DNA from: Ancylobacter tetraedralis | GTDB lineage: Bacteria > Pseudomonadota > Alphaproteobacteria > Rhizobiales > Xanthobacteraceae | DNA length: 64,000 nt | Reading direction: 5' to 3' | NCBI RefSeq assembly: GCF_014195655.1 | Contig: NZ_JACICD010000014.1 | Span: 1 to 64,000 of the forward strand | Shown: one piece after another, positions 5,275-47,170 of the stretch | Position numbering within the stretch: the stretch's first letter is position 1 | How the letters are laid out: each line of letters begins with the position of its first letter | Position numbers and translations under genes: made by a program | The notes under the pieces: model-generated | Seen by the model: only the letters and a program-made list of their open reading frames with translations | What the model was told of the DNA's origin: nothing | Databases searched by the model: none

Positions 5275-5275
5275 C

Positions 5276-23850: not shown

Positions 23851-23859
23851 GGGGGTGCC

Positions 23860-27092: not shown

Positions 27093-27103
27093 CGGAGGCC
27101 GAC

Positions 27104-27373
27104 ATGGATGGAGCCATGCTGGCACGGCTCAGCGCGGTGATCTTTGCGGTCATTGCCGGCACGGCGGCGGTCGTAGAGATAAGCCGAGACGAGAAGGCGC
27201 CGGAGCCTTCGCCCATGCGGGCGATCGAGACTGAGCGCGATCCGCTGCGCGACGCGCAGCGGCGGTGCCAGCAGCTCGGAGAGGCGGCCGCGCACGACGC
27301 CGCGTGCCTGAAGGTCTGGGCGCAGACACGCGGTAGGTTCCTCGGGCGTCCCGCGCCGAACGAAGGCCGCTGA
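27104..27373 (+). CDS. trbK: TrbK-like entry-exclusion candidate (TrbK-alt type)
   Basis: 89 residues: one N-terminal hydrophobic segment (LSAVIFAVIAGTAAVV) and a charged periplasmic part with CQQLGEAAAHDAACLKVWA, two cysteines 14 residues apart. This is the pattern of the small protein between trbJ and trbL in alphaproteobacterial trb operons, called a putative entry-exclusion protein. Exclusion activity is inferred from position. Confidence 0.75.
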   Translation: MDGAMLARLSAVIFAVIAGTAAVVEISRDEKAPEPSPMRAIETERDPLRDAQRRCQQLGEAAAHDAACLKVWAQTRGRFLGRPAPNEGR

Positions 27374-27374
27374 G

Positions 27375-28604: not shown

Positions 28605-29290
28605 GCCTCTTCAAGCGACCCGCGACCCATTACGGCACCTCGCCCGAGCCGGTCACGCCCTATCAGAAGGCAGCACAAGTCTGGGACGAGCGCATCGGTT
28701 CGGCCCGGGTGCAGGCCAAGAACTGGCGGCTGATGGCCTTTGGCAGCCTGTTCCTCTCGGCTGGCTTTGCCTCGGCGCTGATCTGGCAGTCGACGAGGGG
28801 CACCGTCGTGCCCTGGGTGGTCGAGGTCGATCGTCTCGGCCAGACGCAGGCCGTAGGGCCTGCAACCGGCGATTATCGCCCAACCGATCCGCAGATCGCG
28901 TGGCATCTCGCCCGTTTCATCGAGCAGGTGCGCAGCTTGCCGGCCGATCCCGTGATCGTGCGGCAGAACTGGCTCAGGGCCTATGAGTTCACCACCGATC
29001 GGGGCGCCGCCGCGCTCAACGATTATGCCCGCGCCAATGACCCCTTCACCCGGGTGGGCAAGCAGCAGATCGCGGTTGAGGTCTCCAGCGTGATCCGGGC
29101 CTCGCCGGATTCCTTCCGTCTCGCCTGGGTCGAGCGGCGCTATGAGAACGGTCAGCTTGCCGCCACCGAGCGCTGGAGCGCGATCCTGACCCTGGTGATC
29201 CAGCCGCCGCGCGATGCCGAGCGCCTGCGCACCAATCCGCTCGGCATCTATGTCAACGCCATCAGCTGGTCGCGGGAGATGAGTCAGTGA
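28601..29290 (+). CDS. trbF: Conjugal transfer protein TrbF (VirB8-like)
   Basis: 229 residues: a cytoplasmic N-terminus, one membrane helix (FGSLFLSAGFASALIW) and a periplasmic VirB8-like domain (VPWVVEVDRLGQTQAVGP, ERWSAILTLVIQPPRDAERLRTNPLGIYV in parts). It is an assembly factor of the mating channel. It overlaps trbL and trbG by 4 bases each. Confidence 0.9.
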   Translation: MSLFKRPATHYGTSPEPVTPYQKAAQVWDERIGSARVQAKNWRLMAFGSLFLSAGFASALIWQSTRGTVVPWVVEVDRLGQTQAVGPATGDYRPTDPQIAWHLARFIEQVRSLPADPVIVRQNWLRAYEFTTDRGAAALNDYARANDPFTRVGKQQIAVEVSSVIRASPDSFRLAWVERRYENGQLAATERWSAILTLVIQPPRDAERLRTNPLGIYVNAISWSREMSQ

Positions 29291-30270
29291 AAACGTCTTT
29301 CCGTGAATCCACATCTCCGGCTCTGCGCCGATCCGCCTTTGCGGTTCTTCTGCTCTCGGCGACGATGTTGGGCGGCTGCGCATCGGCTCCGAAGCCGCCG
29401 CAGATCAGCTATGACAGTGACGTTCCGGCGCTACCGGTGGTGCCCGCCGTCGTCACTGATGAGCGGCCGCGTCCGCTCCACACGCCGCCCACCTGGACGC
29501 CGGCCAAGGGCGGCACGGACGCGGAAACCCCGGTTGCACGCGTCGAGAACGCCAATGCGGCGGCCCGCGTGGAGCCGCGTCGCGAGGGCTATTACAATGC
29601 CATCCAGATCTATCCGTGGAGCGAGGGCGCGCTCTATCAAGTCTATGCCGCGCCCGGCCAGATCACCAACATCGCGTTGGAGCCGGGTGAGAGCCTGACC
29701 GGCAGCGGGCCGATCGCGGCGGGCGACACCGCCCGCTGGATCATCGGCGACACCGAGAGTGGCGAAGGGGCGAACCGGCGCGTGCATGTGCTGGTGAAGC
29801 CGACGCGGGCGGACATCTCCACCAACCTCGTCATCACCACCGACCGGCGCAGCTACATGATCGAGCTGCGCGCCGGTGAGAAGCCCTATATGCCGGCCGT
29901 CGCCTGGGCCTATCCGCAGGTTCCGGGAGCGCAGCGCCCCAGTGTTCCGCCAACGCCGGTTATCCCGGGCTTCGCGGCCCGCAACTACCGCTATTCACTC
30001 ACCGGAGACACTCCGCCCTGGCGGCCGATTGCCGTCTATGACGACGGGCGCAAGGTCTATGTCGAGTTCCCGCGCGGGGTCATTCAGGGCGAAATGCCGC
30101 CGCTCTTCGTCATCGGCGCGGATGGCGAAGCCCATATCGTCAATAGCCGCATCCACCAGAACATCCTGATCGTCGACCGGCTGTTCGGCGTGGCCGAGCT
30201 GCGCCTCGGCGGCGGCGAGCGTCCGCAGAAGGTGCGGATCGAGCGCACGGACGGGAGGCCGGCATCATGA
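29287..30270 (+). CDS. trbG: Conjugal transfer protein TrbG (VirB9-like)
   Basis: 327 residues. A lipoprotein-type signal (LLSATMLGGCASAP) suggests outer-membrane anchoring. The VirB9/CagX fold follows, with YNAIQIYPWSEGALYQVYA and FNIALEPGE-like beta strands, then YRYSLTGDTPPWRPIAVYDDG near the C-terminus. It forms the outer ring of the core complex together with TrbI. It overlaps trbF and trbI by 4 bases each. Confidence 0.9.
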   Translation: MKTSFRESTSPALRRSAFAVLLLSATMLGGCASAPKPPQISYDSDVPALPVVPAVVTDERPRPLHTPPTWTPAKGGTDAETPVARVENANAAARVEPRREGYYNAIQIYPWSEGALYQVYAAPGQITNIALEPGESLTGSGPIAAGDTARWIIGDTESGEGANRRVHVLVKPTRADISTNLVITTDRRSYMIELRAGEKPYMPAVAWAYPQVPGAQRPSVPPTPVIPGFAARNYRYSLTGDTPPWRPIAVYDDGRKVYVEFPRGVIQGEMPPLFVIGADGEAHIVNSRIHQNILIVDRLFGVAELRLGGGERPQKVRIERTDGRPAS

Positions 30271-31439
30271 GCAACTCCGACAATCATGACCTCGAGGCCG
30301 ATCTTGCCGCTCCGGCCGTCGATCACGCGGCCGCCATGCGGCTGCGTCCCGAGCCGCCGCGCGTCACGCGTCTCTCGCGCAAGGTGCTGGCCGGCGCCGG
30401 GCTGGTCGTCAGCCTCGGCATTGGTGGCGCGTTGATCTATGCGCTGCAGGGTCGCGACAGAGGAACCGGCGGCGAGGAACTTTATTCCACCCAGAACCGC
30501 TCCACCGCCGATGGCCTTGCCGGCCTGCCGCGGGATTACACTGGCCCCATCCTGGGACCGCCGCTGCCCGGCGATCTCGGCCGGCCGATCCTTGATGCAC
30601 AGAACCGCGGCCAGCCCGTCGTGCCGCCGACGATGACGGCGCCGCAGGTCGACCCCGAACAGCAGCGGCGTCTTGCGGAACAGGAAGCCGCGCGCACCAG
30701 TCGCGTGTTCTTCCAGGCTGCGCAGGCTCGCGCGACGGGGGCGAGTGCTTCCGGCTTCAGCGGCCCTGGCTCGGCAGGAACGGGCGCCACGTCCTCACCC
30801 CAGGATCGCCAGCTTGCTTTCCTTAATGCCCCCGTTGATCGGCGCGTGGTCGTATCCGATCGCGTCATGGCGCCGGCATCGCCCTATGTGCTGCAAGCGG
30901 GCGCCGTCATCCCCGCCGCGCTCATCACCGGCATCCGCTCCGACCTGCCGGGCCAGATCACCGCGCAGGTGACAGAGAACGTCTATGACAGCCCGACCGG
31001 CCGAATCCTGATCATCCCGCAGGGGACCCGGCTGCTCGGCCAATACGACAATGGCGTCGGCTTCGGCCAGCGCCGCATCCTGCTGGTCTGGAACCGGCTG
31101 ATCTTCACCAATGGTCGCTCCATCGTGCTGGATCGCCAGCCCGGCACGGACGCGCAGGGCTATGCCGGCCTCGAGGACGGCGTCGACATGCACTGGTGGG
31201 ACCTCGCCAAGGCGGTCGGGCTATCGACGCTGCTCTCCATCAGTGCCGAACTCGCCATGGATGACGAGGACGAACTGATCCAGGCGCTCCAAAGCGGGGC
31301 GCAGGACACCATCAACGATGCCGGCCAAGAGATCGTCCGTCGGCAACTGCAGGTCGCCCCGACCCTGACCATCCGGCCCGGCTTCCCGGTGCGGGTCATG
31401 GTCACGCGCGACCTGGTGCTCGAACCCTACAGGTACTGA
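30267..31439 (+). CDS. trbI: Conjugal transfer protein TrbI (VirB10-like)
   Basis: 390 residues: a cytoplasmic N-terminus, one membrane helix near 35-55 (GAGLVVSLGIGGALIYAL), a Pro-rich linker and the VirB10 beta-barrel domain (QAGAVIPAALITGIRSDLPG, IIPQGTRLLGQYD). It spans both membranes as the scaffold of the mating channel. It overlaps trbG by 4 bases and is followed by a DUF2274 gene after 2 bases. Confidence 0.92.
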   Translation: MSNSDNHDLEADLAAPAVDHAAAMRLRPEPPRVTRLSRKVLAGAGLVVSLGIGGALIYALQGRDRGTGGEELYSTQNRSTADGLAGLPRDYTGPILGPPLPGDLGRPILDAQNRGQPVVPPTMTAPQVDPEQQRRLAEQEAARTSRVFFQAAQARATGASASGFSGPGSAGTGATSSPQDRQLAFLNAPVDRRVVVSDRVMAPASPYVLQAGAVIPAALITGIRSDLPGQITAQVTENVYDSPTGRILIIPQGTRLLGQYDNGVGFGQRRILLVWNRLIFTNGRSIVLDRQPGTDAQGYAGLEDGVDMHWWDLAKAVGLSTLLSISAELAMDDEDELIQALQSGAQDTINDAGQEIVRRQLQVAPTLTIRPGFPVRVMVTRDLVLEPYRY

Positions 31440-31441
31440 CC

Positions 31442-31720
31442 ATGGCGAAGCTGAAACTCGGACCCATCGCTAACGACAAGCCGGTGAAGGTGGCACTTTC
31501 CTTGCCCGGCGCGCTGCACCGTGACCTTATCGCCTATGCTGAGGTGCTCGCGCGGGCAACCGGCGAGCCGGCCCCGGATCCCGTGAAGCTCGTGGTGCCC
31601 ATGCTGGAGCGCTTCATCGCCACCGACCGCGAGTTCGCAAAGGCGCGAAGGGCCATGAATGCCAATCAGATTGCTACGTCTTCAGCCGCCTCGCTCGCAT
31701 CATTGAGCGGGCAATGCTGA
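31442..31720 (+). CDS. DUF2274 protein with an altered C-terminus
   Basis: 92 residues. The first 72 or so follow the DUF2274 pattern (KLKLGPIANDKPVKVALSLP, HRDLIAYAEVLAR, PVKLVVPMLERFIATDREFAKARR). DUF2274 proteins normally stop soon after this point, as far as I recall. The last 20 residues here (NANQIATSSAASLASLSGQC) are read through sequence that is also the antisense of the LysR gene end (31674-31720). The tail is probably a by-product of the cargo join. It closes the trb operon. Confidence 0.75.
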   Translation: MAKLKLGPIANDKPVKVALSLPGALHRDLIAYAEVLARATGEPAPDPVKLVVPMLERFIATDREFAKARRAMNANQIATSSAASLASLSGQC

Positions 31721-32630
31721 GCAGCGTTCGGACGGCCGGGTTATCGTTTTTGGGAGAATAGATTACTGAGAATGGCACAACGTCGTCTGCTAAAGGGCGA
31801 TACGTCACCCCCGGCACGTTAATGATGAGTTCCGACTGAAGTACAGGCACGATTCCTTTGCCCATCGCAACGAGACCCAGCAAGGTGAGCCGTCCCACCC
31901 GCTGTGCGCTGATGACGGGGTGAATATCGAAGCGCAAGAGGCACCGCTCAACGAAGGCTCGGATGTCCAGCCCGCATCCTTCAATCCGCGTAAGAAGGAT
32001 CTCATCGGCTAGGTCGAACCAAGTCACCTTCGACCTGCTGGCTAATGGATGAGATCGAGGAAGCGCAATGAAAAATGGCTCACTCCAAAGCTCGATGCTA
32101 TCGAGCTCCGGCCATTTTGATCTCCCAATAACAAATGCGGCATCAATATCGAAATGGCGAATTGCAGCGACATGTCTTTCCGCCGACGATTCGACGAATT
32201 CAATCTGGACGTTCGCATGGCGCCGGTCATAGGTGTCGAATAACTCGGTCAAAAAATTGGAGGCTAATGTCGAGAACAACCCGATCTTTAGGTGTCCCTT
32301 CTCCACACGGCCGATCGCGGCAGCCTCTTCTGCGCCATCCTGGATATGTTCAAGGGCTTGGCGTGCACGGTTCAAAAATCGCTTCCCTGCCAGCGTCGGT
32401 ATTACCCCGCTGGGCTGACGAATAAACAGAGAAACGCCGATACTATCCTCCAAATCGCGGATGCCGCGACTAACCGCGGGCTCTCCACTCCCTAAAACCT
32501 CTGCCGCTTTCCGAAAGCTACCGCTCTCGGCGGCGGCGATTACATATCGGAGGTGTTTGAGCTTGATAGACAATAGATTGCACTGTCCCTGGCAGGGGGA
32601 GGCAGCTATCTTGCTGTCCGCCCGCAACAA
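31674..32630 (-). CDS. LysR-family regulator next to the microcompartment genes
   Basis: 318 residues from ATG 32630; a TTG at 32573 would start nearer the HTH and may be the true start. The winged HTH (LKHLRYVIAAAESGSFRKAAEVLG) and a LysR substrate-binding domain are clear. It lies downstream of the microcompartment operon on the same strand and tail-on to the trb operon. It probably responds to the amino-alcohol substrate or an intermediate, but the ligand cannot be read from sequence. Confidence 0.8.
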   Translation of the reverse strand: MLRADSKIAASPCQGQCNLLSIKLKHLRYVIAAAESGSFRKAAEVLGSGEPAVSRGIRDLEDSIGVSLFIRQPSGVIPTLAGKRFLNRARQALEHIQDGAEEAAAIGRVEKGHLKIGLFSTLASNFLTELFDTYDRRHANVQIEFVESSAERHVAAIRHFDIDAAFVIGRSKWPELDSIELWSEPFFIALPRSHPLASRSKVTWFDLADEILLTRIEGCGLDIRAFVERCLLRFDIHPVISAQRVGRLTLLGLVAMGKGIVPVLQSELIINVPGVTYRPLADDVVPFSVIYSPKNDNPAVRTLLSIARSMMRARRLKT

Positions 32631-32935
32631 ATGTCCGCCATCGGCCGCATAGTACGCTTGGTAATCTCACACTGACCGAATTTACCAATCGCCGCGCTCA
32701 ACAACCACAACAGGGCGGAGCGCTGAGCTACGCGCCGCCCCTCCGCGCCTCGCCCCGTTGCTCGACCGTGCCCCTCGGGCACAAATGTTAACGTGACTCC
32801 GCTCATCGCTGGATGAACCGCGGGGCCCAGACCAGCGTCTCAAGCTGTCCGAGGAGTTTTCTCATAATCGATTGTAGAGCAGGTGTCGCGGCCAGCTTGC
32901 TACAGTCGCCGCTTTCAAGTAGCCGAAGAGCGGCT
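32631..32935. other. Intergenic gap between kinase and LysR genes
   Basis: About 305 bases without a gene. A short hairpin GTGCCC/GGGCAC with a 3-base loop lies at 32768-32782; no T-run follows on either strand, so I do not call it a terminator. Nothing else recognisable is seen. Confidence 0.4.
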
Positions 32936-33949
32936 TCATCCAGTCATGTATCGGTCACGGAGATAAAGTTCAGACAGCATCACTGTTTGTTCGGTGAATA
33001 AGCCCCCAATTTCCTTCGACAGCGGAATTTCTCGATGGGAAGCCAGCCAGGCCATGAGCAAAATACGCCGCGTCATGACCATCGTTGGGATTATATTGCG
33101 ATCCTGTGAGGTGACCGGTGCCTTTTTCGAATAACCGTCAAGCCACGCATCTCTTAGTTCTGGAATGTTCGGCAGATGTTCGATGAAGGAGACAGCCGCG
33201 GCAAAATCATACATGTGCCAGGAAAATCCGCTATCATCGAAGTCGATGACCTTCAGTCGATCTCCATCTATCAGCAAATTTGCCAGCCTCAGATCTGCAT
33301 GTACCAGCCCGAACCGATCCGGGCTTTGGCCGTATTCGCCAAGCTCGTGACGGATTTTGTCGACGGCCAGCCCGATGATCGCTTTACCGTCATTCCCGAG
33401 ATCGATGGCACTCTGCCACGCCCCCCAGAGCTTGCGCGCCCCATGCATCGCGTCGGCATCCCATACGTGCCGGACAAACCATTTCGGAGGAGTCCAAGCC
33501 ATCGAATGTCGGTGAAGGCGGGCTGTCACTTCGCCCAACACGGTGAACCAATGTGGGAGGTTCTCCTCCACCGAGGGAGCCTTGCCGGGCAGGTAGGAAA
33601 ACATGACGGCGTGCCGGCCCGGAACGCCGCCGTGGGATGGCAGGGTTTGGATCGTGGTGCCGTGCTCATCCGAGAGTGCGACCGGTACTTCGACGATTCC
33701 AGAACTGCGGATGTCCTCCATCCATGCAAGTTCGGATGATATCTCAGTGAACGTATGGTAATTCTGGCGATGAACTCGAAGAATCGATTGATGGTGTCCG
33801 CTGCCGATCCGAAAGGTGGCGTTTTCTGATATATTTAGCAGAGCGACTTCTGCATCCGCATTAAATCCGTAAGAAGGTATCAGGCCGCGCACGTGTATGA
33901 TGAGGCCATCCAAGACGTCCTGCGTAAATTCAAGTCCGGCATCAGACAT
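32936..33949 (-). CDS. APH-fold kinase, probable amino-alcohol kinase of the microcompartment
   Basis: 337 residues. The phosphotransferase motifs are HADLRLANLL (His217, Asp219) and KVIDFDDSG (Asp236, Asp238). AAGGTGA precedes the ATG. In RMM-type microcompartments an APH-fold enzyme phosphorylates (S)-1-amino-2-propanol before a PLP phospho-lyase acts on it, and the neighbours here fit that route. An aminoglycoside-resistance role is possible from fold alone but unlikely given the shell genes. It follows the second BMC-T gene by 80 bases. Confidence 0.75.
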   Translation of the reverse strand: MSDAGLEFTQDVLDGLIIHVRGLIPSYGFNADAEVALLNISENATFRIGSGHHQSILRVHRQNYHTFTEISSELAWMEDIRSSGIVEVPVALSDEHGTTIQTLPSHGGVPGRHAVMFSYLPGKAPSVEENLPHWFTVLGEVTARLHRHSMAWTPPKWFVRHVWDADAMHGARKLWGAWQSAIDLGNDGKAIIGLAVDKIRHELGEYGQSPDRFGLVHADLRLANLLIDGDRLKVIDFDDSGFSWHMYDFAAAVSFIEHLPNIPELRDAWLDGYSKKAPVTSQDRNIIPTMVMTRRILLMAWLASHREIPLSKEIGGLFTEQTVMLSELYLRDRYMTG

Positions 33950-34029
33950 GACGTCACCTTTCGCCTGATTACGATTAATGCATCCGGAAATGCGTCTTTG
34001 GGAGGCTTGGAAGGTCGGTCGGCGACATT

Positions 34030-34737
34030 CTAACCGTGGTCTCGACCTTCGACCTGATTCAGTACTGTTTCGATGCGCAGGAGAGCCCGATCGACGTCGT
34101 CGGAATTTCCCGACATGTAGACACGGCCCGCCGCTCCGATCATTTGGACGTCGACGAGGGTCAATCCTGGGCTGACCTTCTCCGCTTCGTTCGCCGCAAG
34201 CGTCGCGAACAGCGCCGGGACCATTTCGAAGACCAGAAGCGTTTCACCTGGCAGGGCCATGGAAGCCTGACGATTTCGATTGATGATAATGGCGTGCTGA
34301 TCGGCAATCCTCTCGATCTTGTCTGTATAGAGAACGCGCGGCCGAAGTTGCTGGTCTGCCGAAAGACCCAAGCCGTCGAGTATCGCCTGTCCGGCCCTCT
34401 CCAGCCTCGCATCGTCGTCGCCATGGATCTCGAGGACGCCGAATTGACGTTCGACGAAGAGGATGCCGGGCTCGAGCTCCGGATCCTGCTTGAGCGCCAG
34501 ATCGATCACGCGCTCGATCATCAGACCGGGCGCAACCTCGAGAATAAGGGAGTGCTGGCCCGCGAGGGCAGGATAGCCGCGAGCCCGTGTCGGAGTTCCC
34601 AGATAGGCGGCGAACTGCGGCTGCAGGTTCTTCAGCATCAGATAGACGCGGAGGTCGCCGGCTCGCACAGGAGCCGGCGGCTTCGCGGCGTCCGTTCGCG
34701 GCCGAATAGCCTCTTTGGTCGTGTGGGCCGTCTTCAC
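34030..34737 (-). CDS. Tandem-domain BMC shell protein (BMC-T), with N-terminal extension
   Basis: 235 residues from GTG 34737. Two BMC repeats are visible: the first with HSLILEVAPGLMIERVIDLAL and ILFVERQFGVLEIHG, the second with ALPGETLLVFEMVPALFATLAANEAEK and LVDVQMIGAAGRVYMSG. It is similar in layout to the other BMC-T gene at 35767 but has about 30 extra N-terminal residues rich in Pro and Ala. BMC-T trimers form pseudohexameric tiles, often with a gated pore for larger metabolites. It is the third shell gene after BMC-P and BMC-H. Confidence 0.85.
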   Translation of the reverse strand: MKTAHTTKEAIRPRTDAAKPPAPVRAGDLRVYLMLKNLQPQFAAYLGTPTRARGYPALAGQHSLILEVAPGLMIERVIDLALKQDPELEPGILFVERQFGVLEIHGDDDARLERAGQAILDGLGLSADQQLRPRVLYTDKIERIADQHAIIINRNRQASMALPGETLLVFEMVPALFATLAANEAEKVSPGLTLVDVQMIGAAGRVYMSGNSDDVDRALLRIETVLNQVEGRDHG

Positions 34738-34752
34738 TGGCTTTGTCCCGGC

Positions 34753-35031
34753 TTACTTCGCGGGCGTGGCGAAGAATTTCGTGACGTCCGCATGCGGGCG
34801 CGGAATGACGTGAACGGAAACGACCGTTCCGACCTGACCCGCGACTTCCGCGCCGGCTTCGGTCGCGGCTTTGACGGCACCTACGTCACCGTTGATGACG
34901 ACGGCGACAAGTCCGTCGCCGACTTCCTCGCGACCGACGATGGAAACATTGGCGGCTTTGACCATCGCGTCCGCCGCTGCGAGGGCTGCGACATATCCCC
35001 TAGTTTCGATCATCCCGATTGCGTTCGACAT
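34753..35031 (-). CDS. Hexameric BMC shell protein (BMC-H)
   Basis: 92 residues from ATG 35031 with GGAGA upstream; a longer in-frame reading through the intergenic region is rejected. The single BMC domain is textbook: [38 protein letters not shown]. Hexamers make up most of the shell facets. It ends in a short tail ([12 protein letters not shown]). It lies between BMC-P and BMC-T in one operon. Confidence 0.92.
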
Positions 35032-35099
35032 TTTTGTCTCCGTTTCCTCAATTGCATGAAAAGTGAAGGGCATCCGCCTGCGTGGCGGCTTATCCCGCG

Positions 35100-35354
35100 T
35101 CAGGCTTCGGAAGGCGTGTCTTCGTCGATAGAGCCGATGATGAGTGCATCGATCGGTGGGCTTGGCCCTTTGAACCAGGCAGCTGCGACCGAGCCGGTCG
35201 CAATGATGACCCGTTCTCCCGCCCCGCAACCAAGCGGGTCGAAGGCGAGCAGACGAGCCCCGGCATCGACTTCGACCTCAAGTATTGAGCCCGGGGGGAC
35301 GTCGTCGAGGCGCTTTGTGGACCAGACGCTGCCGACAATTGTCGCTTTCAGCAT
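35100..35354 (-). CDS. Pentameric vertex protein (EutN/CcmL family, BMC-P)
   Basis: 84 residues. The EutN/CcmL fold is clear: [48 protein letters not shown]. Pentamers cap the vertices of the icosahedral shell. It overlaps the upstream 140-residue gene by 7 bases. Confidence 0.9.
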
Positions 35355-35770
35355 GTCGGCCTCCGGACCAGCGATATGCCGCGCTCGCGGGCGCGGTCGC
35401 GAGCTATCGGGGTCACGACTGCGTTTGGGGCGAGGACCAGTTCTTTCCCGCGGGTGGCGCTGTTGATGGTCTTCTCGCCGATAACTCCCGAGAGCGGCGG
35501 GGTATGATGTGGGGCGGTCAGTCCGGACGGAATGACCGAACCGTCGTCACGGTCGCGATCCAGTGCGAACCTGATCTGTCCGGAACTCAATCGCGCGGCG
35601 GTAATGGGATTCTCCATCAGTGCGACCACTCGGCCAACCAGACGCTGCAAATCAACGTCGGTCGCGATCGACACCAGCTCCAGATTTGAAGACTGGCGTT
35701 CCGCAATCGCCTCGCGCACGGCGTCGCTGACAATTTGGCGAAGTAGATTCGGGTCGAGCGTCCCCATCAC
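35348..35770 (-). CDS. Microcompartment-associated protein of unknown function
   Basis: 140 residues. The N-terminus NLLRQIVSDAVREAIAERQ is an amphipathic helix of the kind used as an encapsulation peptide, followed by a Ser/Asp linker. The C-terminal part ends with NAVVTPIARDRARERGISLVR, a segment I have seen in other microcompartment-associated proteins. It overlaps BMC-T by 4 bases and BMC-P by 7, so it is part of the shell operon. It may be a cargo adaptor; no catalytic motif is seen. Confidence 0.6.
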   Translation of the reverse strand: MMGTLDPNLLRQIVSDAVREAIAERQSSNLELVSIATDVDLQRLVGRVVALMENPITAARLSSGQIRFALDRDRDDGSVIPSGLTAPHHTPPLSGVIGEKTINSATRGKELVLAPNAVVTPIARDRARERGISLVRRPTC

Positions 35771-36369
35771 GCAATTTCCAGGGCAGCCCGCGCTGCCGAG
35801 GCCGCCGCCTGCACGCTCGCCTCGGTGCCGGACAGATATACCCGGCCGGTCGCACCGATCATCCGGAAGTCGATGACCTTGATGTCGGCCGCTTTCTCGG
35901 CCTCGTTGGTGGCCAGTATCGCATACGCCGCCGGTTCCATTTCCAGGACGAAAAGCGTTTCGCCGGCTAACGCCATGGATCCACCCTTGTTCCTGTTGAT
36001 TAGATACGAGTGCAGCGGATCGAGGCGGGTTACGATGCGCGACGCCAATATCTTTGGCTTCATGGCTTGATCGCTCGAAACCTGTATGTCCCTGAGCACC
36101 GCCGCGCCGGCCGCCCGCACCGCCGCGGTCGATCGCGAATGAATCTCAAGGTAGCCGAACTGGCGTTCCACGACGAGAATGCCGGCCTGCACCTCGGCTT
36201 CCTTCAACGCCACATCCGTCAGAGCCTCGATGTCGAGCCCGGGAGCCACCTCGATGATCTGAGCGGCCATATTTGTTCGCGGAAGAGAGCCGCGAACCCA
36301 TGAACCCATGAAACACATGGTCTGGGGCTGCAGCTGATCGATGAATATAAAAGAGCGCAACTTTGCCAT
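35767..36369 (-). CDS. Tandem-domain BMC shell protein (BMC-T), RMM type
   Basis: 200 residues. The order SFIFIDQLQPQTMCFMG, AAQIIEVAPGLDIEAL, ILVVERQFGYLEIHS, INRNKGGSMALAGETLFVLEM in two repeats and the end VIDFRMIGATGRVYLSGTEA match my memory of BMC-T proteins from RMM-type loci of mycobacteria. It forms trimeric shell tiles. It starts 4 bases after the aldehyde dehydrogenase gene ends. This protein gives the best support for the RMM assignment. Confidence 0.88.
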   Translation of the reverse strand: MAKLRSFIFIDQLQPQTMCFMGSWVRGSLPRTNMAAQIIEVAPGLDIEALTDVALKEAEVQAGILVVERQFGYLEIHSRSTAAVRAAGAAVLRDIQVSSDQAMKPKILASRIVTRLDPLHSYLINRNKGGSMALAGETLFVLEMEPAAYAILATNEAEKAADIKVIDFRMIGATGRVYLSGTEASVQAAASAARAALEIA

Positions 36370-36372
36370 GAT

Positions 36373-37902
36373 TTACGTCCGGCCAAGGGCTGAGTTGAGT
36401 TCGTCGCGAACGAGCGCGCGAATTTTTTCCCGAAGGTCCGCCATCTCGTCGAATGCGGACACAGATGAGGGCTGCTCGTCCGGGATCGTCGAGTTCGGGG
36501 TTTTCCACGGCGTCAGCCCCTCGAAATTGCCGAAGGGCATTCGCGGATCGGTCGGATACGCGATGCTGCTCCAGTTGATGAGCGAAGCCGGCGTGAGATT
36601 TTCGCCGAGCGCACTGCCGCCCATGAAACCTGTCCCGATTGTCATCGTCGGGCCCAGATTGGAACCGAAACCAGCGGCACCCTGAGAGCATGGAGCATTC
36701 ACGACGATGCGGAGAGCCGGCACTCCTGCAGCGTAGGTCATGATCGTCATTTCATTCTGGGAATGGATCGCCGCCGAATGGCCGCCTCCGGATTTCCGGT
36801 TCATCATGCGAGCGGCGCGTATCGCTTCATCCGTTCCGGTCACGACCGCGAAGCCGAGAACCGGACAGAGCTTCTCCCGGGTGAAATGCTCTTCAGGCAG
36901 AACCCGATCGATCGGCACCAGCAGAATCCTGGTGTTGCCAGGAACGTCAAAACCGCAGGCTCTGGCTATGACCGATGCGTCCTTGCCGATGGCGCCGATG
37001 TTGAAGCCCCCGTCCCTCCAAAGAAATGCACGCAGCTTTTCGCGCTCCCCAGGAGAGCAGACATGCGCTCCCGATGTCTGCAGCGCGCGAAGGAGACGGT
37101 CGGCGATGGCCTCCTCCGCGAGCACGACCGATTCATTGGTGCACAAGATCGAGTTGTCGAACGACTTGCTCTCGACAATCCTGGTAGCCGCTGCGGCAAG
37201 ATCCGCGCTCGAATCCACGTACACCGGCCCATTGCCCGGCCCCACGCCAAAAGAAGGGGTTCCCGAGCGATATGCGGCGCGCACCACTGCCGGCCCGCCG
37301 GTCGCGACAACGAGATCTATACGCTCGTCGCTCATCAATCCTTCGAGCGCCGGGATCGATGGTTCGCGCACCACCTGGATCACCCCGTCGGGGGCGCCCG
37401 CCCTCACGGCTTCAGCCGCGATCAGGTCGGCCGCATCGGCACAACACGCTTTCGCAGCCGGATGCGGACAGATCACGATCGCATTGCGCGTCAGAAGGGC
37501 AAGGATCGTCTTGAAAAAGACCGTTGCGACAGGGTTTGTCGACGGGGTCAGCGCCAGAATGACGCCGGCAGGTCGAGCGATACGGACAGTTTTCCGACTC
37601 TGATCGATGACTGGGCCAATATAGTCGGTGTCCCTATAGGTTTCGAATACCCCCAGTGAACACAACTCATTCTTGAGCCGCTTGTCTTCGACCACCCCGA
37701 AGCTGGTTTCCCGTACCGCCCATTCGGCGTAGTGAGCGGCCTTTCCGTATGCGGCCCGAGCCACGGCGCCGGCGATCTTCAGCGTCGTCGCGCGATCGTA
37801 TCGAGAAAATGTCGTCGCGGCCCACCCGGCGCGATCGAGCATTGCCCCGTAAGTGTCTCGATACGATGAAAAATTCAACGTTTCTGGTGTCTCGGGAGCC
37901 AT
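36373..37902 (-). CDS. CoA-acylating aldehyde dehydrogenase with C-terminal encapsulation peptide
   Basis: 509 residues. The fold is that of EutE/PduP enzymes: LTPSTNPVATVFFK, GVGPGNGPVYVD, and the catalytic Cys254 in NSILCTNESVV. It would convert propionaldehyde or acetaldehyde to the acyl-CoA with NAD. After the enzyme core a linker of about 15 residues (STIPDEQPSSVSAFDE) leads to the amphipathic helix MADLREKIRALVRDELNSAL, the expected targeting tag for shell loading. It lies between the PLP enzyme and the BMC-T gene. Confidence 0.85.
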   Translation of the reverse strand: MAPETPETLNFSSYRDTYGAMLDRAGWAATTFSRYDRATTLKIAGAVARAAYGKAAHYAEWAVRETSFGVVEDKRLKNELCSLGVFETYRDTDYIGPVIDQSRKTVRIARPAGVILALTPSTNPVATVFFKTILALLTRNAIVICPHPAAKACCADAADLIAAEAVRAGAPDGVIQVVREPSIPALEGLMSDERIDLVVATGGPAVVRAAYRSGTPSFGVGPGNGPVYVDSSADLAAAATRIVESKSFDNSILCTNESVVLAEEAIADRLLRALQTSGAHVCSPGEREKLRAFLWRDGGFNIGAIGKDASVIARACGFDVPGNTRILLVPIDRVLPEEHFTREKLCPVLGFAVVTGTDEAIRAARMMNRKSGGGHSAAIHSQNEMTIMTYAAGVPALRIVVNAPCSQGAAGFGSNLGPTMTIGTGFMGGSALGENLTPASLINWSSIAYPTDPRMPFGNFEGLTPWKTPNSTIPDEQPSSVSAFDEMADLREKIRALVRDELNSALGRT

Positions 37903-37909
37903 CGGTCAC

Positions 37910-39205
37910 CTAAGCGGCAGAGCGTGCGGAGGGGGCCCGCGCGATGAGTTCGCGCATGCGTGGGATGGCGACGCGGAACCGATCCACGACCTCCTCGGCC
38001 AGGGCGGACGACATGAGGACGCCGGGCTTGAACTGCAGAACGCGCTTGTCGAGCGACGAGAAGATTGCCCAGACGCCATTCTCGTAAAGCGCGCGCGACG
38101 CGTGGACACCGCCTTCGTGATGGGCGAATTCCACTCCGATGACGACGCCCTTCTGACGCAGGCCTACGACGACATCGCCGTCGCTTCGGATGATGTCGTG
38201 GAACGCATCGCTGAAGTAGCGGGTGAGATACTGGACATTGGCGCGGACCTCGGGGCGCTGCAGGATTTCGAGTACCTTCAGGGCGACGAAACAGCCGGGC
38301 TCGGCGCCACCCGATGTCGAAATATGTGCCGCGCCATCCTCCTCCATCCACGCACCGGTTTTCTTGGTGAGCATCGTCACGGCGAATGGATAGATGCCAC
38401 CGCTGATCCCCTTTGCACTGACGAAGATGTCAGGCTGCACGCCGTAAGACTGCCAGCCCCACATCTCGCCCGTGCGCAACAATCCGGTCTGCACTTCGTC
38501 GGCGATGTAGAGTGCGCCATATTTCTCGCATAGCGCCTTGACGGACCGATTGTAACCTTCATGCGGCATGGGAAAGCCGTAGGTCGCGGGTATGGTCTCC
38601 AAAATTACGGCCGCGATATCCTGTGCCGAAAGCGCACGCTCCATTGCCCCGAGGTCATTGAACGGCACTTGGGTGAACTCGTCCGGTCGATCGGACAGAA
38701 ATATCTTCGAGAAGCGGGAATCTCCGGTCGCGACGGAAAGGCCCGAATGGCCATGGTAGCCTTTGATTATCGAAATGACCTTGCGTCTTTGGGTAGTATA
38801 ACGCGCCGACTTGATCGCGACATCGATTGCCTCTGCGCCGCCCGGCGCGAAAAAAGCATAATCGAAACCCGGGCAGACTTTCACCAGCGCTTCAGCCAGC
38901 GCCGTGCGAGCGACCGACGGGAACCAGTGATTGCCAATGTCAAAACGATCGAGGGCGGTCTTCAACGCGCCGACGAGCTCGGTATTGCGGTGGCCGAAAT
39001 TGAACGTGCCGCCGTTGATGTGGAGATCTATCAGGCGCTTTCCGTTCATGTCGTAGATCAGGTAGCCTTCTCTTCTGTCGATCACGAGATCGATGCCCGC
39101 GTCTCTCCAGAACTTCGTTTTTCCTGGGTTCCAGCACGCGATCGACTTCTCGATCACCTCTTCCTTGGAAGAAAATTGGAACATGCCGTAATCGAACATT
39201 GGCAT
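37910..39205 (-). CDS. Class III PLP enzyme, probable amino-alcohol-phosphate phospho-lyase
   Basis: 431 residues. Class III aminotransferase fold: GHRNTELVGAL, APGGAEAIDVAIK, the PLP-pyridine Asp236 in IADEVQTG and the Schiff-base Lys265 in FVSAKGISGG. In RMM loci this member is thought to remove phosphate and ammonia from phosphorylated amino-2-propanol, giving propionaldehyde, rather than to transfer an amino group. Position first in the operon, with kinase and aldehyde dehydrogenase following, supports that. A true transaminase cannot be excluded from sequence. GGGG precedes the ATG. Confidence 0.75.
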   Translation of the reverse strand: MPMFDYGMFQFSSKEEVIEKSIACWNPGKTKFWRDAGIDLVIDRREGYLIYDMNGKRLIDLHINGGTFNFGHRNTELVGALKTALDRFDIGNHWFPSVARTALAEALVKVCPGFDYAFFAPGGAEAIDVAIKSARYTTQRRKVISIIKGYHGHSGLSVATGDSRFSKIFLSDRPDEFTQVPFNDLGAMERALSAQDIAAVILETIPATYGFPMPHEGYNRSVKALCEKYGALYIADEVQTGLLRTGEMWGWQSYGVQPDIFVSAKGISGGIYPFAVTMLTKKTGAWMEEDGAAHISTSGGAEPGCFVALKVLEILQRPEVRANVQYLTRYFSDAFHDIIRSDGDVVVGLRQKGVVIGVEFAHHEGGVHASRALYENGVWAIFSSLDKRVLQFKPGVLMSSALAEEVVDRFRVAIPRMRELIARAPSARSAA

Positions 39206-39242
39206 CCCCTGCCGATGCCTTTCTCAGGGCATCGATAAAAAC

Positions 39243-39285
39243 AACATTTCCAACATTTCAAACATTACGAAGCGATTGTCAACGG
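39243..39285 (-). promoter_or_regulatory. Microcompartment operon promoter with three 9-base direct repeats
   Basis: Three adjacent repeats AACATTTCC, AACATTTCA and AACATTACG (39243-39269, plus strand) lie 38-64 bases upstream of the PLP enzyme ATG. On the minus strand a perfect TTGACA -35 box (39282-39277) sits just upstream and its spacer runs into the repeats; the -10 is weak. A regulator bound here would control the whole operon. The DeoR or LysR neighbour is the likely ligand-sensing protein. Confidence 0.5.
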
Positions 39286-39770
39286 GCCTTTGTCGGCCGC
39301 GGGAGCGACTATCAGGCCGTGCTGCTGTTTTGGCCCGACTGAAGCGTGTCCAGTGGGCTCCAAAAAATACGAAGAAAGCAAATACTTCAGCCACCCCGGC
39401 ATCGTGGGCATCCATCGCGGTGACTGGGAGACTGGCCTTCGATAACCGCCGCAAGGACCTTAACTTCCCCGCCGCAACCGGTTCCGTCGTGATGCAGATG
39501 GTGACGTATCGGTGAAGGCTTCTGGCGGGTGTTGGAATGATGCTGCTTCAATGGCATCACTCTCGCTCGTGCGGTAAGGCCCGATGTGGTCAGTTTCTGC
39601 GACCTACCCTCGACGCTGGGCTATCCCTCGCCCGTCGGATACGAAGGGTTTCATCGTCAATTTGATTCGGTCCATCATGGCCGCCGACAATCCACGAAAG
39701 TGTGCGAATTCCTTGTCTGGTCGTCGAAATCCATCGATGGTGTTGCGCTCGGAGAGTGCCCGAACTGAGT
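39286..39770. other. Divergent intergenic region between PLP enzyme and DeoR regulator
   Basis: About 485 bases without a convincing gene. Short open frames on both strands lack family signatures and good start sites. GGAGAG near 39751 lies upstream of the DeoR ATG at 39771. It probably holds the DeoR promoter; nothing more can be supported. Confidence 0.4.
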
Positions 39771-40556
39771 ATGAGAATGTCGTCTAGTTATCGTCACGAA
39801 GAAATACGCAAGCAGTTGGCAACCACAGGGCGCGTCCGGGTCGATGCGATTGCCGCTAAGCTGGGCGTTACGACGGAGACGATCCGTCGGGACCTGACGG
39901 AGTTAGAAAATCGCAGCCTTTTACGTAGGGTTCACGGCGGCGCCATCCCATTCAATACTGGAAATGAACCTCCAATATCGGATCGCACACGAATTCGGGC
40001 GCGTGAAAAATCTGAAATCGGCGTTGTTGCGACAACCTTGTTATCGGACGGCATGTCCATATTCGTCGACGCCGGCTCGACGCAGTCTGCGTTTGTCCGA
40101 GCCTTCCGCGACCGATCCAATTTAACGGTGACGACCAATTCGCTGGATATCGCCTCAACTCTTGTTGCCTCTCCGGGGATCGTAGTTCGCCTTACCCCCG
40201 GTATCCTGCGTCGTAGCGACAACGCGACCATCGGTCATGATACTGTCAGCTATGTGGAACGCTTTGCGTTCGATCTGGCATTTCTTGGAATTGGCGCCTG
40301 CGACTCCGTTCTGGGTTGGATGGATTTCGACGAGGACGAAGCCGCGTTGAGGAGGGCAGCGTATAAACTCTCGGCGCGCTCCGTTGTGCTGATCGACAGC
40401 AGCAAATTCGGCAGAAGGGCCGCTGTGCGAACCTTCGATATCGATCAATCCTTGATTGTCGTGACCGAGAAGACGCCTACGTCGGACTTTTTCGAGGTTT
40501 TCACAAAGAAAGGACTTAAGATTCTAACGCCGGAGGAGCGCGGGATTTCGTCATAA
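39771..40556 (+). CDS. DeoR-family regulator, divergent from the microcompartment operon
   Basis: 261 residues from ATG 39771; ATG 39777 is an alternative and an upstream in-frame GTG/ATG extension is unlikely. The DeoR HTH (RHEEIRKQLATTGRVRVDAIAAKLGVTTETIRRDL in two parts, residues 8-45) and the sugar-phosphate-type sensor domain (IFVDAGSTQSAFV, FLGIGACD) are clear. DeoR proteins usually repress a divergent catabolic operon and sense a phosphorylated intermediate. A phosphorylated amino alcohol would be a natural ligand here; that is inference. Confidence 0.8.
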   Translation: MRMSSSYRHEEIRKQLATTGRVRVDAIAAKLGVTTETIRRDLTELENRSLLRRVHGGAIPFNTGNEPPISDRTRIRAREKSEIGVVATTLLSDGMSIFVDAGSTQSAFVRAFRDRSNLTVTTNSLDIASTLVASPGIVVRLTPGILRRSDNATIGHDTVSYVERFAFDLAFLGIGACDSVLGWMDFDEDEAALRRAAYKLSARSVVLIDSSKFGRRAAVRTFDIDQSLIVVTEKTPTSDFFEVFTKKGLKILTPEERGISS

Positions 40557-40724
40557 GCGACTGCCAGGATGTGCGCATTGTCGTATGCGCTGTGTCGGTT
40601 ATGAGCGCCGTGGCCGCGGACGGCATGCAGAATCACTTTGTAGGCGGTTGAAGAAGTCTCTCATCCGCAACCGCGCGGCGCGATTCACTCTGATGCGGGT
40701 AGCGAGAGTTGGTTGTGCGGTCGT

Positions 40725-41480
40725 CGGATGAGAGAGCAGATGCGCTGTTCAGCTACTTCGACGTTGAGGTTCGTCCAAAAGGACCGTCCGCTTCGGTCGA
40801 TCCGAGTGGTGGTCGACGAAGCCCCGGAAACACGAGAGCCGGCTTTGCGGCTCTGCATTCCCGCACGGGGCGCCCATTGATTGCACCCGAGACACTGCTG
40901 CGGCCGAGACTGCAGCAGGCCTTCTATTTGACCAGGTTCGAGGCAGTTGATGAGCGGCCGGGGCTCGATGTGCTGTTGCGGTGGTTTGTTGGGTTCGGGA
41001 TTGATGACCCCGCCTGGGATCATTCGACCTTCTCCAAGAACCGGCGACGCTGAAGCCAATTTCCTGGGCGAGGCGCGCTCCAATGCCACCCATATCAACA
41101 ACACCTATCCCAATACGGAGTTGGGTCGTAAAGATCCGGGCAGGGGGCGCGACTGTGCTTTTTCCGACCACGCCCTGATGGAGGAACCGGTCTGGCCTGC
41201 TCGTGGGACCTGTCGGACGCCAGACAAAGGACATGCCGACCGGATCGCTGTGCTAGCCATGACCGAGGCCTGCTCCAATCGTCCCGTCGCCGTGACGCTC
41301 GAGCCCGACAAAAGCTAGGATGCCTCCGACTTCGTCAAGGAGTTGCGCACCAGGAATGCGCGGCTCCATATCCCACAGAATACAACGCGCCGTGGACGCT
41401 GGGCTATCGACGGGAAGACGCCCCGCCGTCCCGGCTATGGGGTCAGCCCGCGCGTGCGCGAGAGAATCGAAGATGCTTTC
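40725..41480 (+). pseudogene. IS5-family transposase, decayed
   Basis: Fragments in several frames read ERADALFSYFDVEVR, then ALHSRTGRPLIAPETLLRP, LQQAFYLTRFEAVDE, LLRWFVGFGIDDPAWDHSTF, LGEARSNATHINNT, ADRIAVLAMTEACSNRPVAVT and SDFVKELRTRNARLHIPQN. Together they cover most of an IS5-like transposase with frameshifts and internal stops. No intact terminal repeats are seen. It lies between the microcompartment and phosphonate modules and marks the join. Confidence 0.7.
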
Positions 41481-41725
41481 GTCTGATGCATGGCCGCGGG
41501 ATGCGCTGGCCGATGGTGTGGGGCGTCGAGCGGATGGGATGGGCCTTTCAATATGGTTCCCGGGACGAAGCGCCCCGCGCCGAGTTCTCATGGCAGGGCA
41601 TCGACGACGTCGATGAAGCTTGCGGGTCGCAGATGGGTCACGCTCCCCACCGCCGGCCACCTCGTTGGCCACATCTTCATCCACCCGGCCGATGATTCAG
41701 GCTTCGTCTGCCGCCGGGAATAAGT
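41481..41725 (+). pseudogene. Decayed fragment of an unidentified small protein
   Basis: Two frames give RMGWAFQYG, EFSWQGIDDVDEACG and, shifted, GHLVGHIFIHPADDSGFVC before a stop. The pieces read as one broken protein of perhaps 80-90 residues. I do not recognise a function. It directly follows the IS5-like remnant. Confidence 0.35.
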
Positions 41726-41800
41726 TCTTCAATGCCTTGGTAGGCAGGGCTTGCGCAGGTTCGACCATTGTCGGATCCAGACGCTCATCTCGTCGAGCGC

Positions 41801-42760
41801 TCACGGCCTCTCAGCCCGCACCTCCCTCTGGTGCGCCGGGGGCGTATTGTCCAGATCGTGCAGATCCGTTGCGCTCGCGGGTTGGCGCTGCATGGCGAGC
41901 CAATCAGCGAACAGCGCTTCCGGAGAGCTGCTGCCTGCTCCTTGCGGATACGCTGCAAGATATTGCGGACCGTCGATCCGCGCCGAAGGCACCGGTTCGA
42001 CCAGCACCCCTCTGCCGAGCAGATCGTCGATAACGATCATGGGACTGACGAGGCCGCCACGGCCTGCGAGAGCGGCTTCCAGCGCCGTGTAAAAATGCGG
42101 ATAGATGATCGCGCTGCTCGCGATCCTGATCGAAAAGCCTGCGGCCTGCAGCCAGCTCTCCAATTCGCCCGTGCGGGTCTCGGCCATCAGGAGAGGCATC
42201 GAACCGATCCATCGGTCGAGATCTGCGTCCAGCGGTGCTTTCAGTCCAGGCGTGCAGACGAGGCCGAGCTTTTCCCTCATGAAGGGTACGGCCCTGAAAT
42301 GCGGAGGGACGGGGCCGCCGCGGCGGATCGCCACGTCGAACGGCATCTCCAGCCAGTTTTCGGGGGTGTGCGTCTGCGTGACGCGTACACGGATGTCCTC
42401 GTGCCGCGCCTGGAAGTCCGGCAGGCGCGGCAGCAGCCAGCGCATCGCGAAGGTCGAGGGCGCGAGCACGCGCAGAAGGTGCTCGCCGGCTCGCGCCGAG
42501 AATTGATCGAAGGACGTTCCTATCAGTTTGAGCGCCATACCGATTCCGTCCGCGAGACGGGCCGCGGCGGCCGTGGGAACCATAACGCGCCGGTTTTCCG
42601 CGAACAGAGGTTCGCCGACCCATTCTTCTAGGATGGCGATTTGCTTGCTGACGGCGCTGTGCGTGACGAGCAACTCCTCGGCTGCGGCGCCGACACCGCC
42701 GCACCGCACGACACTTTCGAATGCGACCAAGGCGCGGAGGGGTGGCAGCCTGTGACGCAT
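41801..42760 (-). CDS. LysR-family (GcvA-like) regulator of the phosphonate operon
   Basis: 319 residues. The HTH (LPPLRALVAFESVVRCGG, AAAEELLVTHSAVSKQIAILEE) and GcvA-type effector domain (RVTQTHTPENWLEMPFDVAIRRG) are clear. It is divergent from the phosphonoacetate hydrolase gene with 159 bases between. In Pseudomonas fluorescens 23F a LysR protein (PhnR) controls phnA in response to phosphonoacetate; the same logic is likely here. Confidence 0.8.
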   Translation of the reverse strand: MRHRLPPLRALVAFESVVRCGGVGAAAEELLVTHSAVSKQIAILEEWVGEPLFAENRRVMVPTAAAARLADGIGMALKLIGTSFDQFSARAGEHLLRVLAPSTFAMRWLLPRLPDFQARHEDIRVRVTQTHTPENWLEMPFDVAIRRGGPVPPHFRAVPFMREKLGLVCTPGLKAPLDADLDRWIGSMPLLMAETRTGELESWLQAAGFSIRIASSAIIYPHFYTALEAALAGRGGLVSPMIVIDDLLGRGVLVEPVPSARIDGPQYLAAYPQGAGSSSPEALFADWLAMQRQPASATDLHDLDNTPPAHQREVRAERP

Positions 42761-42823
42761 CTGTTCCTCTTTCTCACCTCACCGAGGAGATTAAGTCAAT
42801 TTACTCGGGATAGTGGAATAAAT

Positions 42824-42885
42824 ACGCTCTGTATTAAGACGAGATTGCTGAACAATTCAGCGAAATCGATCTCTTTACAGAGCGT
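42824..42885. promoter_or_regulatory. Concentric dyads in the LysR-phnA divergent promoter
   Basis: ACGCTCTGTA (42824-42833) and TACAGAGCGT (42876-42885) are perfect 10-base inverted arms, 52 bases centre to centre. Exactly between them lies a second dyad GCTGAA-CAA-TTCAGC (42847-42861). Both share a centre at about 42854. The arrangement suits a LysR tetramer contacting inner and outer sites, with the start of phnA 35 bases beyond the right arm. Confidence 0.55.
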
Positions 42886-42919
42886 TTGTTACGCGCCCAT
42901 GACAGCGTGGAGAAAGAAT

Positions 42920-44191: not shown

Positions 44192-44192
44192 G

Positions 44193-45485: not shown

Positions 45486-45561
45486 TCGCTTGCGTCGATA
45501 TTAATGCTTCGACTGGCCAACGATTGAACAGCAGATCATCCCATAACGTCAGGAGCCCTTC

Positions 45562-47136: not shown

Positions 47137-47170
47137 TCTGTTGGCCCTAATTAACTGAGGATACCACGCG

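Follow-up and report, generated by a model that had tools for sequence, protein, structure and literature searches.

What does a conjugative element bring to its host when it carries the genes for a whole protein-shelled organelle? This question is raised by a stretch of 64,000 nucleotides from Ancylobacter tetraedralis (bases 1–64000 of contig NZ_JACICD010000014.1, here contig C14, which measures 86.8 kb in a genome of 5.03 Mb; referred to below as the window), in which an operon for a bacterial microcompartment (BMC) is located between the genes of a trb-type conjugation apparatus and an integrase. We consider it fairly probable that this operon encodes a metabolosome related to the RMM/AAUM class of Mycobacterium and Rhodococcus, that it is cargo of a trb-type integrative and conjugative element (ICE) integrated at tRNA-Gly(GCC), and that its enzymes constitute a pathway consisting of a kinase, a phospho-lyase and an acyl-coenzyme A (CoA) forming step.

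Gene set and integrity of the operon

The operon consists of eight genes on the minus strand, running from position 39205 to 32936 in the order class III pyridoxal 5′-phosphate (PLP) enzyme (AT3), CoA-acylating-type aldehyde dehydrogenase (AldDH), BMC-T1, a small protein, BMC-P, BMC-H, BMC-T2 and kinase (Table 1). Consecutive genes overlap or are spaced by at most 15 bases, except for 68 bases before BMC-H and 80 bases before the kinase gene. The shell and enzyme genes which a preliminary description of this DNA had assigned to one operon were all recovered as open frames on this strand, but the gene of the small protein had been overlooked. For the seven genes compared with the related locus of Phyllobacterium sp. 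KW56 (L036), the nonsynonymous divergence (dN) ranges from 0.015 to 0.183 and the synonymous divergence (dS) from 0.67 to 1.99. As dN is far below dS, the sequences indicate that the operon is under purifying selection and is not a chance gene set.

Within the genus, represented by 30 genomes including this one, BMC-T1 was matched in this genome only, and the locus is thus not fixed in relatives; such fixation had been named in the preliminary description as contrary to its view. At the family level, matches were found in 12 of 296 genomes, namely this one, ten with 42–43% identity and one weak fragment; the ten look like another kind of microcompartment, and three of their loci contain, within the 3.6 kb seen, an AldDH about 41% identical to that of the window. 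The isolated occurrence in the genus, together with a G+C content of the operon and its DeoR gene below that of the trb cluster (0.586 vs 0.671), would also suit an operon that the element carries along as a passenger without a role or as a silent remnant, a reading which we nevertheless regard as very unlikely because all frames are open, dN is far below dS and an operator-like repeat is retained together with its regulator (see below). A megablast comparison of the operon with plasmids gave no match.

Kinship of the shell and related loci

The best solved relatives of BMC-T1, BMC-T2 and BMC-P are MSM0275, MSM0271 and MSM0273, respectively, and for BMC-T1 the next match is another microcompartment protein at 8e-52. 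In the case of BMC-H, a designed tandem fusion (6ner) ranks first and MSM0272 second. The structure entries of MSM0272 (5l38) and MSM0275 (5l39) carry the RMM label. BMC-T2 has no match in the Pfam search and matches the NCBIfam model CcmP at 6.3e-54, which is under the cut-off of that model; its name is based on this match and on MSM0271. Judged by best or second-best solved relatives, BMC-H, BMC-P and two BMC-T proteins of the RMM kind are present, as are an acylating AldDH, a class III PLP enzyme and an APH-type phosphotransferase.

A single scan of genome contigs with BMC-T1 as sole query yielded 138 confirmed places, of which 80 were kept as loci. The closest BMC-T1 sequences are those of Phyllobacterium sp. 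KW56 (98% identity) and Mesorhizobium tianshanense (L037, 97%). As far as the loci extend, the order AT3-AldDH-T1-P-H-T2 is repeated from Mycobacterium to Rhizobiales; the kinase gene follows BMC-T2 in most loci, precedes AT3 in clade B (see below) and lies on the opposite strand in three loci. A tree was calculated from six concatenated proteins by a quick method without a mixture model; its 79 rows represent the window and those 78 loci in which four or more of the six genes are present, two loci being dropped. The window first joins the Phyllobacterium and M. tianshanense loci (support 100), then Rhodobacter (99), inside a clade A of 19 alphaproteobacterial or unplaced rows (100). Clade A stands beside clade B (19 rows, mostly alphaproteobacterial, one gammaproteobacterial) and a third clade of 39 mostly actinobacterial rows, the branching order of the three not being fixed. 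Two long branches, L084 and L103, meet in the tree. Three metagenome-assembled genomes titled Spirochaetaceae or Bifidobacterium breve (L046, L066, L073) have their loci inside the actinobacterial clade, and these titles may be wrong.

The RMM-type assignment of the preliminary description consequently stands for shell and enzymes, but not for membership in the actinobacterial RMM clade, the operon being placed in an alphaproteobacterial lineage. As to a grouping of the shell genes with a non-RMM class, the outcome named there as contrary to the assignment, the best solved relatives of the shell proteins are RMM proteins (for BMC-H after the designed fusion), and the tree was built from RMM-like loci alone. 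As for the source of the operon, a recent actinobacterial origin is disfavoured by the tree, and dS values of 0.7–2 disfavour a recent derivation from Phyllobacterium or Mesorhizobium.

The small protein encoded between BMC-T1 and BMC-P appears to be a regular component of these loci. Among the 78 related loci having both neighbours (two of the 80 are without a neighbour), 77 possess an open reading frame in this position, and the aligned proteins (alignment A3, 35 rows) are built from an N-terminal helix resembling an encapsulation peptide, a linker and a C-terminal TPxARDRAR motif. Neither Pfam nor NCBIfam contains a match, and the predicted fold (pLDDT 75.9, pTM 0.33) has no match in the PDB at an E-value of 0.001. 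A function as scaffold is possible.

Enzymes and proposed pathway

The best solved relative of the kinase is 6ef6, which we take to be the (S)-1-amino-2-propanol kinase of M. smegmatis, and the motifs HADLRLANLL and IDFDD are retained. The kinase also weakly matches the first third of PRK06149, a model of 972 positions named 'aminotransferase' (36 bits, cut-off 973), which hints at a coupling between kinase and PLP enzyme. In AT3, the PLP-binding Lys265 is present in 69 of 71 aligned rows, the other two being gapped. Near the C-terminus, Gln391 (70 of 71 rows) takes the place of an aligned arginine of putrescine aminotransferase, which presumably binds 2-oxoglutarate. With the PLP lysine retained and the transaminase arginine replaced, AT3 may act as a phospho-lyase; according to PMC8154272, ethanolamine-phosphate phospho-lyase is found among class III enzymes. 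The predicted fold of AT3 (pLDDT 66.6) was judged too weak for a structure comparison. In AldDH, Cys254 and the LRxxxR..EL motif of the C-terminal helix are present in six of six aligned sequences. Both AldDH and the 140-residue small protein carry a short conserved helix set apart by a linker, which is the form of encapsulation peptides as described in PMC12339742, and both might be packaged in this way.

Based on these features, we propose a first scenario for the pathway. The kinase would phosphorylate a small amino alcohol, most likely (S)-1-amino-2-propanol and possibly ethanolamine. Inside the shell, AT3 would act as phospho-lyase and release an aldehyde, ammonium and phosphate, and the co-packaged AldDH would convert the aldehyde to propionyl-CoA (or acetyl-CoA), a product that would exit to central metabolism; a methylmalonyl-CoA mutase is encoded in the genome. 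The DeoR regulator would act at a triple-repeat site upstream of AT3, and the contribution of the ICE to a pathway already existing in the host would be containment and CoA activation.

A related locus without a shell in the host chromosome

A candidate for such a resident pathway is a locus on contig C4. Like the window operon, it contains a kinase (45% identity), a DeoR regulator (31%) and a class III enzyme (22%, with Lys at the position of Gln391), and it additionally encodes an ABC importer and a dehydrogenase resembling those that flank other RMM-type loci (56% identity for the binding protein of the importer, 55% for the dehydrogenase). Unlike the window operon, it has no match for shell genes or an acylating AldDH within the 19 kb searched.

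The preliminary description had found alcohol dehydrogenase, phosphotransacylase and amine transporter missing and had deduced a pathway that is either shorter or dependent on the host. RMM loci are normally devoid of phosphotransacylase and alcohol dehydrogenase (PMC4207490). Dependence on the host has gained a concrete candidate in the C4 locus, whose dehydrogenase and importer are candidate host counterparts for functions earlier found missing and might serve the ICE operon.

The probable conjugative element

The operon, the trb cluster, the integrase and an attachment-site repeat all reside on contig C14, as the preliminary description had claimed for the conjugative surroundings. As the operon is located between the trb cluster and an integrase abutting the tRNA-Gly repeat on the same contig, it is probably carried as cargo of an ICE. 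The trb block resembles annotated trbB-trbI/DUF2274 blocks of plasmids, with 147 records matched, and its DUF2274 gene overlaps the LysR gene tail to tail at 31674–31720. A 28-base pattern taken from the end of the attachment repeat occurs in two copies in the genome at up to two mismatches, and the second copy is part of the intact tRNA-Gly gene on contig C11. Behind this tRNA gene, contig C11 encodes ParB, Toprim, an RPA-type RepA, ParA, an S26 peptidase, SLT, a DUF3363 relaxase and, at the contig end, the start of TraG. The beginning of contig C14 was read as the end of TraG on the basis of a match behind TraG in a relative of the genus. Joined across the contig break, the parts on C11 and C14 would form an element of about 71.6 kb plus the gap, C11 contributing the left arm with relaxase and TraG.

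Additional copies of the tRNA end with a length of 46–48 bp were detected in eight of the 29 other genomes of the genus, and related integrases are found beside such copies. In one of these genomes (G280), an integrase of 75% identity adjoins the extra copy, and the backbone genes of the window element come next (relaxase 91%). From the cargo of the window, weak LysR and ABC ATPase matches alone were obtained there, in 40 kb of the ca. 118 kb between tRNA and repeat.

Table 1. Features of the window with coordinates, strand and assignment basis.
Feature	Position	Strand	Basis
AT3, class III PLP enzyme, proposed phospho-lyase	37910-39205	-	Pfam PF00202 1.5e-69
AldDH, CoA-acylating-type aldehyde dehydrogenase; variable linker, then C-terminal helix	36373-37902	-	NCBIfam AdhE and EutE-type matches, below the cut-offs of those models
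BMC-T1, tandem-domain shell protein	35767-36369	-	MSM0275 (5l39) 3.5e-86
Conserved small protein, 140 codons	35348-35770	-	Open reading frame between BMC-T1 and BMC-P
BMC-P, vertex protein	35100-35354	-	PF03319 1.3e-15; MSM0273 (5l37) 4.1e-29
BMC-H, shell protein, start 35031	34753-35031	-	PF00936 1.1e-26; MSM0272 (5l38) 1.8e-37
BMC-T2, tandem-domain shell protein, GTG start	34030-34737	-	MSM0271 (5suh) 5.3e-84
APH-fold kinase, proposed amino-alcohol kinase	32936-33949	-	PF01636 2.1e-26; 6ef6 8.7e-75
DeoR-family regulator, divergent; probable start 39768 or 39774	39702-40556	+	PF00455, PF08220
LysR regulator, probably outside the operon	31674-32630	-	Pfam
trb conjugation cluster and DUF2274	22281-31720	+	T2SSE, DUF2274, TrbE-family match; resembles plasmid trbB-trbI blocks
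Tyrosine-type integrase	52610-53899	-	PF13356, PF00589
Attachment-site repeat, 48 bp, 3′ part of tRNA-Gly(GCC)	54101-54148	+	47 of 48 bases shared with the complete tRNA gene of contig C11
Stretch resembling IS5-family transposase DNA of rhizobial plasmids	40557-41800		67-75% identity over 30-53%, best 8 of 68 records; 4 of these 8 annotated IS5
Cargo: phosphonoacetate hydrolase PhnA, second phosphodiesterase, dipeptide-type ABC transporter, Na/Pi symporter; own LysR on - (41801-42760)	41801-52370	+	PhnA TIGR02335

Observations opposing the proposal

Several observations weigh against the proposed scenario. With respect to the element, the relaxase and the start of TraG are located on another contig, the break interrupting TraG. 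Contig C21 carries a second relaxase/TraG arm, and contig C15 ends with a 91% copy of the first 0.7 kb of C14 (the TraG end); the assignment of the left arm hence rests on the attachment-site pair. The backbone of G280 is reversed relative to the integrase when compared with the window element. In the two nearest relatives, the Phyllobacterium and M. tianshanense genomes, the TrbE-family matches are not on the contigs of the operon, so that this genome is the one known case of carriage on an ICE, and the dS values of 0.7–2 speak against a recent exchange with both of them. With respect to the enzymes, the best solved relatives of AT3 are putrescine aminotransferases, and its best NCBIfam matches are transaminases, those shown being all below cut-off.

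The latter findings lead to an alternative in which the class III enzyme serves as a transaminase of 1-amino-2-propanol or a derivative of it, AldDH forms the CoA ester and the phosphotransferase acts later. Such a route has already been predicted in the published scheme of PMC6620236, and it conforms to the nearest solved proteins of AT3; however, the dehydrogenase of that scheme was not found at the window locus. The presence of Gln391 in place of the aligned arginine, in 70 of 71 rows, also speaks against the route. Moreover, the solved protein nearest to the kinase, 6ef6, is an amino-2-propanol kinase, and altogether we consider the transaminase route unlikely and retain the phospho-lyase scenario.

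Besides the second arm on C21 and the partial copy on C15, a second TrbE-family match is present on contig C9, which suggests that several related conjugative elements reside in the genome. To the right of the attachment repeat, the segment 54137–54603 and positions 69494–69704 of contig C14 both resemble the left end of the element itself, and the segment 19873–21431 is repeated with 92% identity at positions 67938–69497 of C14. These repeats were probably left behind by related elements arranged in tandem.

Regulation

The sequence AATGTT is repeated three times with a spacing of 9 bp on the minus strand at 39243–39266, the sole copy of this arrangement in the window. In the window and in the Phyllobacterium and M. 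tianshanense loci, the triple repeat precedes AT3 by 43–81 bases; the 80 loci (1.25 Mb) contain no further copy. As these two loci also possess a DeoR regulator 60% like that of the window, the triple repeat is a good candidate for a DeoR operator. It was not found in the chromosomal C4 locus, and the intergenic stretch 39206–39773 gave no match to plasmids.

For counts of accessory genes, loci with full flanks were used, which comprise 8 of 18 clade A, 13 of 19 clade B and 22 of 41 actinobacterial-type loci; the long-branch loci L084 and L103 were excluded, and the 41 include two loci outside the tree. DeoR is present in 8/8 clade A, 0/13 clade B and 0/22 actinobacterial-type loci. Of the two flanking regulators envisaged in the preliminary description, DeoR thus belongs with the operon, but LysR, for which no counterpart was found in the 80 related loci, probably does not. 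Relatives of LysR directly follow the trb genes in Paracoccus versutus (where the trb match ends at 388739 and LysR begins at 388934) and Sphingopyxis pMC4. LysR as regulator of the operon is disfavoured, although its relatives in two other plasmids viewed are positioned away from trb.

Neighbouring cargo and a possible link to phosphorus

Downstream of DeoR and the IS5-like stretch, a gene run at 42641–52370 starts with PhnA (TIGR02335, 571.4 bits, cut-off 407.55) and ends with the Na/Pi symporter. A Na/Pi symporter gene is also located directly downstream of the operon in the Phyllobacterium and M. tianshanense loci; the other 78 loci, many of them short, gave no match, nor did the other full-flank loci (0/6 in clade A, 0/13 in clade B and 0/22 in the actinobacterial type). 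In the Phyllobacterium locus, a gene resembling phosphonopyruvate hydrolase, which at 369.4 bits narrowly misses the cut-off of 374.4, is found beside aminotransferase and LysR genes. In M. tianshanense, the symporter gene adjoins the shell genes, and a kinase orthologue was not found in the draft genome, in which the search returned one fragment at 3.6e-4.

The subgroup of these three loci may accordingly use phosphorylated substrates, as the symporter and hydrolase genes suggest. In a variant compatible with the phospho-lyase step proposed above, the shell would be fed by an amino-alcohol phosphate, either imported or derived from organophosphorus compounds, the kinase would be optional and phosphate would be exported by the Na/Pi symporter. 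The symporter genes next to two operons and on the same contig arm in the window, the fragmentary kinase match in M. tianshanense and the hydrolase genes near the window and Phyllobacterium operons are in line with this variant, which remains doubtful in our view: the kinase is intact in the window and in Phyllobacterium, the symporter of the window belongs to a separate operon 11 kb away and is 42% identical, the M. tianshanense locus and its extended flanks yielded neither a PhnA nor a PalA homologue, the 80 loci include many short ones, and a shared location on an element can be accidental. Phosphonoacetaldehyde was also considered as the shell aldehyde in view of the nearby PhnA and was dropped, as the AldDH is of the AdhE/EutE type and the kinase would then lack a role.

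Similarly doubtful is the most far-reaching version, in which the element conveys a portable salvage module for organophosphorus compounds and amino alcohols: a stripped RMM-type shell using a phosphorylated amino-alcohol substrate with an optional kinase, coupled to phosphate export and C-P hydrolases and conjugating onto a resident pathway without a shell. If true, an organelle would be spread by conjugation and upgrade the amino-alcohol pathway of its host.

Other kinds of genes were noted as well. The left cargo (1285–21000) is rich in defence-like genes, namely a subtilase beside an AAA ATPase, DUF6791-ThiF, a UvrD helicase beside an AAA_15 ATPase (a pair which we take to be Gabija-like), Shedu and Fic. 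To the right of the attachment repeat, one open reading frame (54808–58455) combines a Beta-lactamase-family domain with an autotransporter beta-barrel and is followed by a second Beta-lactamase-family gene (58465–60024).

Comparison with known systems

The operon shares with the RMM1/AAUM loci of Mycobacterium and Rhodococcus the AldDH, the class III PLP enzyme, the kinase, two BMC-T proteins, BMC-H, BMC-P and the small protein, as well as an operon devoid of phosphotransacylase and alcohol dehydrogenase. Diol dehydratase, the criterion of RMM2, has no match on contig C14 and is present in 12/22 actinobacterial-type, 3/13 clade B and 2/8 clade A full-flank loci. In contrast to RMM1/AAUM, the window operon belongs to an alphaproteobacterial lineage, adjoins trb and integrase genes, lacks the short-chain amino-2-propanol dehydrogenase, the amino acid permease and GntR, and possesses DeoR instead. 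The dehydrogenase occurs in 22/22 actinobacterial-type, 13/13 clade B and 5/8 clade A full-flank loci, those without it being the Phyllobacterium and M. tianshanense loci and L104; at 1e-3 it was detected neither on contig C14 nor in the C11 stretch. GntR (22/22, 0/13 and 1/8 in the same order) and the permease (21/22, 0/13 and 1/8) have no match on contig C14. AraC is characteristic of clade B (0/22, 12/13 and 1/8), and the kinase is widespread (22/22, 13/13 and 6/8). As the accessory genes given for RMM1 in PMC4207490 are not found together here, the operon is filed as an RMM-related variant and not as RMM1. Apart from the dehydrogenase, permease and GntR compared here, PMC4207490 also lists several hydrolases for RMM1.

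The Aut cluster, reported from Actinobacteria, Firmicutes and Proteobacteria in PMC6620236, contains the same kinds of gene but also an amino-2-propanol dehydrogenase, GntR and a GabP-type permease. Closest to the window are the Phyllobacterium and M. tianshanense loci, which agree with it in gene order, near-identical BMC-T1, DeoR, the triple repeat and the lack of a dehydrogenase match, and differ in the directly adjoining Na/Pi symporter and the operon contigs without a TrbE-family match; the M. tianshanense locus is also without a kinase. Relatives without the dehydrogenase, and one without the kinase, can help to sort out which RMM steps need a compartment. In the window, a full shell and enzyme operon stands beside a mating apparatus, an integrase and an attachment repeat, while the host has the related chemistry minus the shell, and what the shell adds to a pathway already present is a question testable in a single strain.

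A literature search on microcompartments and mobile elements revealed no microcompartment on an ICE among the matches listed, most subscription papers being beyond reach. PMC8217296 portrays microcompartment loci as modules that lend themselves to horizontal transfer and reports RMM2 outliers beside phage integrases; RMM-type loci in Proteobacteria were already reported in PMC6620236. A plasmid-borne precedent is the RMM locus on pRHL2 of Rhodococcus jostii RHA1, with shell genes, AldDH, phosphotransferase, an aminotransferase-family gene and a BMC-T1 of 68% identity. In distinction from the window, pRHL2 is an actinobacterial linear plasmid typed as mobilizable, several of its shell genes are doubled, and GntR and an ethanolamine permease are annotated nearby. 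The operon of A. tetraedralis is, in this company, a variant of the known RMM-type metabolosome, for which plasmid-borne and proteobacterial RMM-type loci are the precedents.

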